Below, one piece after another: positions 23,630 to 41,591 of a stretch of 64,000 nt of DNA. Source of the DNA: Desulfuromonadaceae bacterium. Its GTDB lineage: Bacteria; Desulfobacterota; Desulfuromonadia; Geobacterales; Pseudopelobacteraceae. The DNA lies in NCBI GenBank assembly GCA_028687585.1, contig JAQTZV010000026.1, positions 1-64,000 on the forward strand, given 5' to 3'. Made by a program: the position numbers and the translations under genes. The notes beneath the pieces were generated by a model. It saw only the letters and a program-made list of their open reading frames with translations. It ran no database searches and was not told the origin of the DNA. Position 1 is the first letter of the stretch, and each line of letters opens with the position of its first letter.

Positions 23630-25231
23630 TCAACGTACAGGATTGATCATATAAAGTCCCTGTGAATAATCCTTGGCAATATCTGTTATCAGGCCGCAAT
23701 CCGCCAACAGACATAATGTGATCGCAAGGCGGTCTTCGCCAACAAATGGTTTTAATGGCCTACTGATCAAAGAGACCAGCCCTTCCTCCTCTACACTAAT
23801 CCGGAGCCTCTGTTTCTTTCCGTCAAACCTGAACGCTGCTACTCCAAAGTGCTGACTTAGTACGAGGTTCTCAATGATGAATCTCAGTAATTCAGGTAAT
23901 GGCCGAGCACTGAATCTACTAAAGACCGTTTGCCAGTATTTAAGTGATATGCGTTTAACTTCGCCAATACCCAGCAGCTTTTTGCTGTCATCATGCTGTT
24001 CTAACAAAGATGATAGCTTTTCACATAAAAGCAGGAGCCGAAGGGCCAATGGGACAACATCACTTTTCCAAGTTTTAAGACTTTTCTGAATGTTTTCCAT
24101 TATTGAGAAAATACAATAATCAGGGTCTGTATCGGCCAGATCAAGGTAGTCTTCAACAGTGTCCATTCCAGTAAACAGTTTTCCGGATATATCTGCAGTG
24201 TTTACACCTTGAGGGACAATCTTCTCGTGTTCTGATAGAAAAACCATTATTGCATCAACCAAAACAACAGTGTCACGATCTTTATGCCTAATTAGTCTAT
24301 CTTCAACCCAAGCGAAAATGGCTTCAAAAGCCAAACGGTGTGCTTGCCGAATTTGCAGAATGAACCAGCGTATCCATGCAGTCTCAAGCGATTTGCTCAA
24401 ATTCATAATGGGCTTGCTCTTTAGTCGGCGGTATGAAAGTGCAATGCGAATGTCTTTTTCAGCAAGTGGATCTGAACTCTCCTGCAAAAGTTCTAAAACA
24501 AGTGCCACAGTTGCACTGCGCCTACCTAAAGGAGTTGCTGAATTTATTAATTGCGAATCATAGAAGCTTACAGCAAACGCTGCCATCTCGGCATCTGAAG
24601 GCGAACGCAGATCCCATGCATGGAAAAGGCCTTTTGCAATATTCTCATCTGCCTTAAATTCTTTAAGGCTTGTCAGGAAGTCATACCCGGGAGCATCTTT
24701 AAGACTCTTCTCAAGAGCCTCTGCCATTTGCACCCCATTGCCATAGGCCCGGAATACATCTTTTTCTACTGGTTCAAGAAAAAGCAACCCCCCGGTTGTT
24801 TTTGAAGCGGGTCCATATGTAGGCGCCGCCATCAGGCTGGTGTTATCTGGATCTCTTTTCCAGGCAGAAAATGACAGCTCGACTGTTCCATTCGTACTGG
24901 CTGGTTGTTTTGCCTCTATACCCGGTACTTTAGGCAAACCTAGTCCATGATGGCCCCATGTGAAAAGGATTTCAATTTTTTCCTTAAAGCAAATCAGTGC
25001 CTCGCTCGACTGTTGATCAATTTCTTGAGCTTTCATGAGGTCATAAAATTTCCAGTATATCCATGACAGGACAGAAAAGCCCCGTATATACCGGGTGTAG
25101 TTGTTTATCCCTGGCAGACATGTCTCCATTAGTTCGAGATTTGCCTGGCGCATGCCGAGGAAATCAACACCACTGGGGTCAATTTTGAACTTGGGTATGA
25201 AAAATGGGCCAATGGGAGTATCTATTTTCAT
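23630..25231 (-). CDS. Hypothetical protein of defence-like operon (possibly DUF6361-like)
   Basis: 533 aa; GVDFLGMRQANLELMETCLPGINNYTRYIRGFSVLSWIYWKF; ATGA-type overlap with the next gene. Confidence 0.65.
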   Translation of the reverse strand: MKIDTPIGPFFIPKFKIDPSGVDFLGMRQANLELMETCLPGINNYTRYIRGFSVLSWIYWKFYDLMKAQEIDQQSSEALICFKEKIEILFTWGHHGLGLPKVPGIEAKQPASTNGTVELSFSAWKRDPDNTSLMAAPTYGPASKTTGGLLFLEPVEKDVFRAYGNGVQMAEALEKSLKDAPGYDFLTSLKEFKADENIAKGLFHAWDLRSPSDAEMAAFAVSFYDSQLINSATPLGRRSATVALVLELLQESSDPLAEKDIRIALSYRRLKSKPIMNLSKSLETAWIRWFILQIRQAHRLAFEAIFAWVEDRLIRHKDRDTVVLVDAIMVFLSEHEKIVPQGVNTADISGKLFTGMDTVEDYLDLADTDPDYCIFSIMENIQKSLKTWKSDVVPLALRLLLLCEKLSSLLEQHDDSKKLLGIGEVKRISLKYWQTVFSRFSARPLPELLRFIIENLVLSQHFGVAAFRFDGKKQRLRISVEEEGLVSLISRPLKPFVGEDRLAITLCLLADCGLITDIAKDYSQGLYMINPVR

Positions 25232-40565: not shown

Positions 40566-41591
40566 CTACTCAGCCAGTAGAACAGCTGCCTTGGCGACAT
40601 TCCCTTCGCCGAGTTTTTCGAGCATGTAGACGGCGTTTGCAACTGACGCAGAAGCACTGTACAAAACGTTCACAAAATAGACCTTATCGTTGATAGTCAC
40701 TTGAGTACAATTCCCTGTTGAGCTGATAGTGTCAACCAGCTTTGTATTGCGGCCTGCTTTGTCCAAAATCGGCAATGGATCAAGTAATTCCGGTTTTTTA
40801 GTCAGACAATATGTGCATATTTCAGTCAGAACTTTGGACCATCCGCCTACAGCAACTTCACTGTTATCGGGCAATCGAAGCCTTTTAGGCCGTCTGCCTT
40901 TTGGATCCCAGCGACCATCTCCCAAGACAAGCCAAGGTTCCTGTCCAACTCTTACAACAGTGGGCGACACTCTCCCTTCTGATATGCAACTTACTGTCCC
41001 CTCAACCTCAACAATCATTTTTTCCAACTCATCGATTCTGCTTCGTAGCTCGTCCTCAACAGTCTCATCTGCCTTGACTGGCTTAATAAATAGTGCTGCG
41101 TCAAGGTTTGCGATTAAATACGCTCCTGCTTTTATCGGTAAGTCTTCGTCAGCAATCTCTATTAAATTTATTGGGTCATGACCCGGCAAAAAATTAATGT
41201 GGCCGGCTATATAATTATTTTCAGAATTTTGATTTATGTAATGACGCCATTCAATACCATTTGTGAGGAATACGTTCTTTATCCTTGCACGTTGAGCATA
41301 AAGAAAAATTTGATCAAATCCGTTATCTAAAGCAGCTCCCATTTTTTTTGCTTCAACAATTATTCGACTATTTCCATTTAAAATATAATCGATAAAATCA
41401 GACTTTTGGGCAGAATTATAATGTTTTTCTAACTCTACTTCATGTGGATCAGATAAATTCCATCCGAGCGCTTCGAGTATTGGGTTGATCAATGCCGTTC
41501 TGGTTTGGGCTTCATTGCTCGGTGCATAAACCTGAGCCCTCCTCTTTACTTCAACCAGTACTTCGCACAAGCCTGCCAATGGGCTTTGCAT
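40566..41591 (-). CDS. HsdR N-terminal-like endonuclease domain protein
   Basis: AQTRTALINPILEALGWNLSDPHEVELEKHY...DFIDYILNGNSRIIVEAKKMG; no helicase domain. Start uncertain (41591 or 41663). Confidence 0.75.
   Translation of the reverse strand: MQSPLAGLCEVLVEVKRRAQVYAPSNEAQTRTALINPILEALGWNLSDPHEVELEKHYNSAQKSDFIDYILNGNSRIIVEAKKMGAALDNGFDQIFLYAQRARIKNVFLTNGIEWRHYINQNSENNYIAGHINFLPGHDPINLIEIADEDLPIKAGAYLIANLDAALFIKPVKADETVEDELRSRIDELEKMIVEVEGTVSCISEGRVSPTVVRVGQEPWLVLGDGRWDPKGRRPKRLRLPDNSEVAVGGWSKVLTEICTYCLTKKPELLDPLPILDKAGRNTKLVDTISSTGNCTQVTINDKVYFVNVLYSASASVANAVYMLEKLGEGNVAKAAVLLAE

Follow-up and report, generated by a model that had tools for sequence, protein, structure and literature searches.

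A tight eight-gene operon read as a stack of defence modules, with an AbiEi antitoxin domain fused to a DNA methylase

Do eight closely packed defence-like genes form a single system, or are they separate systems that share one operon? This question is raised by the genes g1 to g8 in the window, the 64,000-nucleotide stretch of a Desulfuromonadaceae contig that was analysed here. The first-pass annotation described a tight minus-strand operon of eight genes at 23630-41591 with a divergent XRE gene, and the ORF list agrees (Table 1). Three junctions are 4-nt overlaps and the other gaps measure 17-87 nt. From the promoter-proximal end, a g1-g2 gap of 87 nt, a g2/g3 overlap of 4 nt, a g3-g4 gap of 41 nt and a g4/g5 overlap of 4 nt are followed by a g5-g6 gap of 17 nt, a g6-g7 gap of 21 nt and a g7/g8 overlap of 4 nt. 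The eight genes are presumably cotranscribed; 20 terminator-like sites were observed in the operon region versus 18.8 by chance, a scan that is weak evidence. The g1-g2 gap contains a perfect inverted repeat that ends some 10 nt ahead of g2 and is a possible operator or attenuator. For g1 we prefer a start at the ATG of 41591, which is preceded by a ribosome-binding-like stretch (GGGGGAG), while the mechanical ORF reaches 41663. According to our analysis, the best explanation of the locus, and one that we consider reasonably probable, is a mobile-island operon of stacked defence modules in which AbiE, tied to the methylase, serves as its guard in the manner of PrrC.

Table 1. Positions of the operon genes, the regulator and repeat, and the elements of the carrying island in the window.
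Feature	Position	Strand	Evidence
g1, HsdR-N domain protein, D...EAK nuclease motif (DFIDYILNGNSRIIVEAK)	40566-41591	-	HSDR_N 4.7e-8
g2, PLD (HKD) nuclease fused to SNF2 helicase, 1097 aa	37185-40478	-	PADLOC/Pfam/NCBIfam
g3, whole ORF	33058-37188	-	continuous ORF
g3 N-terminal part, residues 1-1132, Eco57I/DrmMI-like N6-adenine methylase	33793..37188	-	Eco57I 2.3e-38
g3 C-terminal part, residues 1151-1372, AbiEi antitoxin (DUF6577)	33073..33738	-	in-frame fusion; residues 1183-1368, DUF6577 1.3e-30 (Pfam); residues 1161-1368, AbiEi 1.4e-30 (PADLOC)
g4, AbiEii nucleotidyltransferase toxin	31940-33016	-	PADLOC AbiEii 1.5e-94; Pfam AbiEii 3.6e-21
g5, Dsr1-like SIR2 protein, 1170 aa	28431-31943	-	SIR2_2 2e-20 + DUF4020
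g6, OGG-like helix-hairpin-helix protein, 241 aa	27688-28413	-	weak homologue matches
g7, PLD protein, ZacB-like	25228-27666	-	PLDc_2 1.1e-7; ZacB (PADLOC) 1.8e-11, PLD half only; PDC-M27B 1.4e-11
g8, distant ZacA homologue, 533 aa	23630-25231	-	hhalign
10-bp perfect inverted repeat ATGGCCTCTC-N11-GAGAGGCCAT	40488..40518	.	read from sequence
XRE/Cro-type divergent regulator, 127 aa	41705..42088	+	HTH_3 6e-13
D5-type primase of carrying island	45608..48064	-	D5_N 3e-24
Tyrosine integrase of carrying island	49599..51011	-	Phage_integrase 5.8e-19
tRNA-Arg(CCT) 3'-end copy, 28 bp	51111..51138	+	exact match to intact tRNA-Arg, contig C42

The domain content of the eight proteins was scored with PADLOC, Pfam and NCBIfam HMMs, which backed the earlier calls of HSDR_N, of PLDc_2 with SNF2 and Helicase_C, and of the Eco57I methylase, AbiEii, SIR2_2 and PLDc_2. 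Catalytic motifs are intact in g1, g2, g3, g4, g5 and g7, and g6 and g8 have no direct match in the three HMM sets. Two readings had to be revised: g3 had been taken for a methylase only, which overlooked a full C-terminal AbiEi domain, and g8, labelled hypothetical, is ZacA-like by profile comparison. On these sequence grounds the operon appears to comprise (1) a core of PLD-SNF2 helicase and Eco57I-type methylase with the PD-(D/E)xK protein g1, (2) AbiE, (3) a Dsr1-like SIR2 protein, (4) an OGG-like protein and (5) a ZacB-like PLD protein with a distant ZacA homologue. With at least five separable modules, a tight operon of this kind should not be named as one system.

In the core, the motifs HAK...GSSN, GLGKT and DEAH of g2 and the methylase motifs DPAIGSG and NPPY of g3 are all intact. 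The closest relative of g2 is from Prevotella sp. oral taxon 299 (54% across the full length), and a strong match to g2 was found in 26 of the 396 same-phylum genomes searched. A virus-collection scan with g2 alone retrieved no relatives, and one with a g2 alignment mostly generic helicases. When regions were fetched and searched with HMMs from our own alignments, g2 was seen to adjoin a g3-type methylase at about 31 other distinct loci, spanning same-phylum relatives, plasmid records of Bacteroidota and Deinococcota, and virus-collection contigs. Within the stretches examined, homologues of g5, g6, g7 and g8 are absent from all of these loci, and what is encoded between the two genes or behind them differs from locus to locus (Schlafen/AlbA proteins, an MNT/HEPN pair, BRO-N, TIR, ATPases). 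The same genome carries a second PLD-SNF2 and methylase pair on contig C28 (L059, L116), 36% and 34% identical to that of the window and downstream of a WYL regulator.

At L070:8615-9261 an MNT/HEPN-like toxin-antitoxin pair separates the PLD-SNF2 helicase gene from the methylase gene, as another toxin module in the core. At L110:4017-4856 an inverted partial methylase copy stands next to an intact methylase gene, which suggests, as far as gene order can tell, target-specificity switching by inversion. Similar methylase fragments adjoin a DNA invertase gene in Prevotella nigrescens (L019:22017-26354).

The first-pass annotation had left open whether the operon is a new composite or fused neighbouring systems, and had proposed to ask whether its two halves (33-41 and 23-33 kb) co-occur. 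Among the loci recovered, the halves are joined only in the window and separate everywhere else, so that the reading as neighbouring systems stood and the composite did not. The eight-gene set does not recur among these loci, and its modules occur alone elsewhere; the loci compared are a broad rather than exhaustive sample, so the full set could exist in other genomes. One integrated eight-component system, in which foreign DNA detected by the core would set off SIR2 and AbiEii as joint effectors, with the OGG, PLD and ZacA proteins also required, would be in keeping with the very tight coupling of the genes, including the 4-nt AbiEii/SIR2 overlap, and with the effector-type genes (TIR, ATPases) that in Parabacteroides and Prevotella, too, lie downstream of the helicase and methylase genes. 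Against it stand the separation of the halves at every other recovered locus, the occurrence of g7-g8 and of the Dsr1-like SIR2 alone in other genomes, and the absence of g5 and g6 from the locus of the nearest other g7-g8 pair (identity about 40-45%). We regard such a system as improbable. The related idea that a DNA-targeting module had been combined with abortive effectors gained real backing for AbiE only, where there is a methylase fusion and a place in restriction-modification operons elsewhere.

A resemblance to DISARM had also been pointed out, together with the absence of DrmB. That absence was borne out, since DUF1998 matches none of the eight proteins (Pfam, E up to 0.1), and the resemblance does not extend to membership, as DrmA, DrmB and DrmC are all lacking. 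DrmA models match g2 only across the shared helicase core, and g7 scores 15.9 bits against DrmC_I, for which the cut-off is 133. In DISARM class 1 and ARMADA (PMC12458937), a DrmD/BrxHII-like helicase likewise lies beside a PglX/DrmMI-like methylase, whereas the operon lacks the YprA/DrmA helicase, the DUF1998 protein and DrmC, and its own helicase bears a PLD domain. ARMADA was rejected, as there is no YprA-like and no second helicase in the operon. With BREX-related type 2 systems (PMC12839542) the operon shares an effector made up of a Swi2/Snf2 helicase with an HKD nuclease at its N-terminus, and an N6-adenine methylase, but those systems have a DUF499 ATPase and a DUF3780 protein, neither of which has a Pfam match in the operon (E up to 0.1). 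The idea that the operon is a divergent form of DISARM, of ARMADA or of the BREX-related type 2 systems draws on the likeness of g2 and g3 to DrmD/DrmMI and to the HKD-Snf2/N6-methylase set (PMC12839542, PMC12458937). Since YprA-type helicase, DUF1998, DUF499 and DUF3780 match none of the eight proteins (E up to 0.1) and the best DrmD model scores 154 against a cut-off of 610, we consider it very unlikely.

The genes downstream of AbiE are best described as modules of their own. The motifs GAGVS, TTNFD and LHG of g5 are intact, and like Dsr1 it has an N-terminal SIR2 domain, a long C-terminal region and DUF4020. It differs from Dsr1 by a score far under the family cut-off (274 bits versus 1400 in NCBIfam) and thus falls outside the family as defined, and the nearest full-length relative recovered shares 28% identity with it. 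This relative stands alone on a Rhodococcus plasmid, and another genome (G325) encodes a related SIR2 protein just after a type I restriction operon. The earlier helix-hairpin-helix call on g6 is supported indirectly, through two homologues (33% and 23% identical) that match the OGG-like family PF21790 at 1.6e-5 and 8e-4, both under the curated cut-off. G-x-G-x-T-Y and D-[TS]-R are invariant across the three sequences. Threonine occupies the position which, by the usual EndoIII/OGG1 spacing, we take to be that of the catalytic lysine of helix-hairpin-helix glycosylases, so that, to judge by these three sequences, a lyase would be less likely than either a monofunctional glycosylase or a role in binding. 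A single-sequence AlphaFold model of g6 (pLDDT 32) was too poor for a structure search, as was a model of g8 from two sequences (pLDDT 36).

For g7 and g8, comparison with Azaca (ZacA, ZacB, ZacC) is informative. The PLD protein g7 has two H-x-K/G-S-x-N motifs. PADLOC gave no direct ZacA match for g8, which was linked to ZacA through a bridge protein of 528 aa on contig C28 of the same genome; this protein matches ZacA in PADLOC (2.9e-7) and is followed by a ZacB-like PLD protein. The hhalign comparison of g8 with this ZacA-like protein (L073:16273-17859) reached a probability of 91.7 and an E-value of 7.6e-7 over 461 columns, and its score of 58.0 compares with 22.7 or less in a set of about 84 unrelated proteins of comparable length. 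On C28 the ZacA-ZacB-like pair lies about 30 kb beyond the second PLD-SNF2/methylase pair, with a transposase-like gene behind it.

At those recovered loci that match well, g8 adjoins a g7-like gene, and the two occur together without g2 or the methylase at L016/L078 and L022-L025. At the deltaproteobacterial locus L016/L078 the pair is about 40% and 45% identical to that of the window and g5 and g6 are lacking; the pair also occurs without a helicase on Rhizobium and sphingomonad plasmids. Judged by these similarities, g7-g8 would be an Azaca-like ZacB-ZacA pair. As in Azaca, ZacB-like PLD and distant ZacA-like genes are neighbours, but the order is reversed, the similarity is remote and there is no separate ZacC helicase; g2 matches ZacC only across the helicase core (best stretch 732-805). 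The window would widen the Azaca-like ZacB/ZacA pair to a two-gene unit without a helicase. Scans of the virus collection with g7 and with g8 found no relatives, and the genome-collection scan with g7 found two contigs only, near-identical DNA in two bins that was counted as one locus; G532:C303 is equal in length to one of the two. The near-identical sequences (L078 and L079) come from metagenome bins of different families (G021 and G532), at least one of which is likely contaminated.

As a collection, the defence modules are ordinary. What is notable is that AbiEi is fused to the methylase and that an AbiE clade resides within restriction-modification operons. Both parts of the fusion are complete. 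Residues 1-1132 align to 2-3 residues from the C-terminus of the second-copy methylase on C28 (L059), and the AbiEi part is complete compared with unfused relatives, being 36-38% identical to the stand-alone AbiEi of genomes G360 and G371. The AbiEii motifs KGGTSL and SIDID are intact. According to PMC3985639, AbiE is a type IV toxin-antitoxin that works as abortive infection. The AbiEi domain of g3 lies directly upstream of the AbiEii gene, the normal AbiE order, but as the tail of a DNA methylase, whereas AbiEi is a separate protein in the system described there (PMC3985639). Among the loci recovered, the fusion is found in one genome only.

Restriction-modification operons seem to be a repeated residence of this AbiE type. 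DUF6577 is present in six of the 396 phylum genomes, and at five of these six loci, window included, it lies next to methylase or helicase genes of a restriction-modification operon. The gene orders are methylase-AbiEi-AbiEii-PLDSNF2 in one operon (G360), AbiEi-AbiEii-PLDSNF2 on a contig that starts within AbiEi (G441), HsdM-AbiEi-AbiEii-HsdS-HsdR (G575) and AbiE downstream of HsdR and an MNT/HEPN-like pair (G371); G497 is the sole phylum locus without such a neighbour. On a virus-collection contig (G656), a few genes separate PLD-SNF2 and methylase from AbiE downstream, and four Bacteroidota plasmids carry AbiE without a restriction-modification neighbour. A maximum-likelihood tree built from 14 AbiEii proteins puts the toxin of the window with those of G360, G441 and G371 (support 99/99) and those of G575 and G656 outside its group, so that AbiE probably came to reside in restriction-modification operons on more than one occasion. 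We found no report of AbiE inside such operons in the open-licence literature. A type I restriction operon with AbiEi-AbiEii inserted between HsdM and HsdS lies at L092:3060-11448.

How might these parts work together? The core probably acts in restriction-modification, to judge by its domains: g3 would methylate host adenines as a self mark, and g2, a PLD nuclease on an SNF2 motor, would attack unmethylated incoming DNA together with the PD-(D/E)xK protein g1. With AbiEi as its C-terminal domain, the methylase itself would neutralise AbiEii while free fusion protein is there. A phage product that inhibits, titrates or degrades the methylase, or loss of the genes, would free AbiEii, which may then modify tRNA like its MenT relatives and halt growth, a role that PrrC plays alongside type I enzymes. 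The proteins g5 (SIR2, NAD depletion), g6 (OGG-like) and g7-g8 would be independent defences added on one transcript. AbiE thus appears to be the only module physically wired to the core, and as read from the genes this link would be the strongest sign of functional wiring in the operon. We infer all enzyme activities, the toxicity of AbiEii, its neutralisation and triggering, and the guard step from domains and gene arrangement.

The analogy is to PrrC, a translation-blocking toxin in a restriction-modification operon that is silenced by the restriction enzyme and senses its inhibition (PMC12707154). Here, too, a putative translation-blocking toxin lies within a restriction-modification operon and is predicted to be silenced by that enzyme. 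PrrC of PrrC-EcoprrI is an anticodon nuclease, whereas AbiEii is a nucleotidyltransferase, of another toxin family and target chemistry, whose MenT relatives extend tRNA acceptor stems (PMC10435456). The link here is a covalent fusion and guarding is predicted from gene arrangement. We tentatively posit, as a possibility worth pursuing, that the methylase-antitoxin fusion is the off-switch of a tRNA-modifying toxin, that every phage attack on the methylase leads automatically to abortive infection, and that the AbiE clade is a wider guard class. If so, a virus that disables the methylase could make the cell stop growing. An AbiE clade in restriction-modification operons and one fusion make guarding of the methylase by AbiE a concrete and cheap hypothesis.

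AbiE might instead be an addiction module only, which keeps the island or the restriction-modification genes, with the fusion due to loss of a stop codon and no phage sensing. Only about 50 nt separate methylase and AbiEi in the unfused arrangement of G360, so that few changes would be needed for fusion; AbiE pairs stand alone on plasmids, and the island bears an integrase and a primase. AbiEi also acts as a repressor in known AbiE systems, so the fusion may merely provide antitoxin. However, five of the six phylum DUF6577 loci lie within restriction-modification operons, by methylase or helicase genes, and the toxin of the window groups with the AbiEii of such operons. We judge addiction alone to be somewhat unlikely; addiction and guarding are mutually compatible.

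By its sequence context, the operon sits on a mobile island. The copy of the tRNA-Arg(CCT) 3' end is likely one attachment end and, with the intact tRNA on C42, places the right end of the island near 51.1 kb; a left end was not found on the contig of the window. At the nucleotide level, the operon has no match among the E. coli genomes and plasmids searched. Elsewhere in the window, a tyrosine integrase is directly followed by an IS91-type transposase gene (11558-13500), and an RtcB-like RNA ligase and a serine recombinase lie just beyond the 3' end of the operon (20620-23555).
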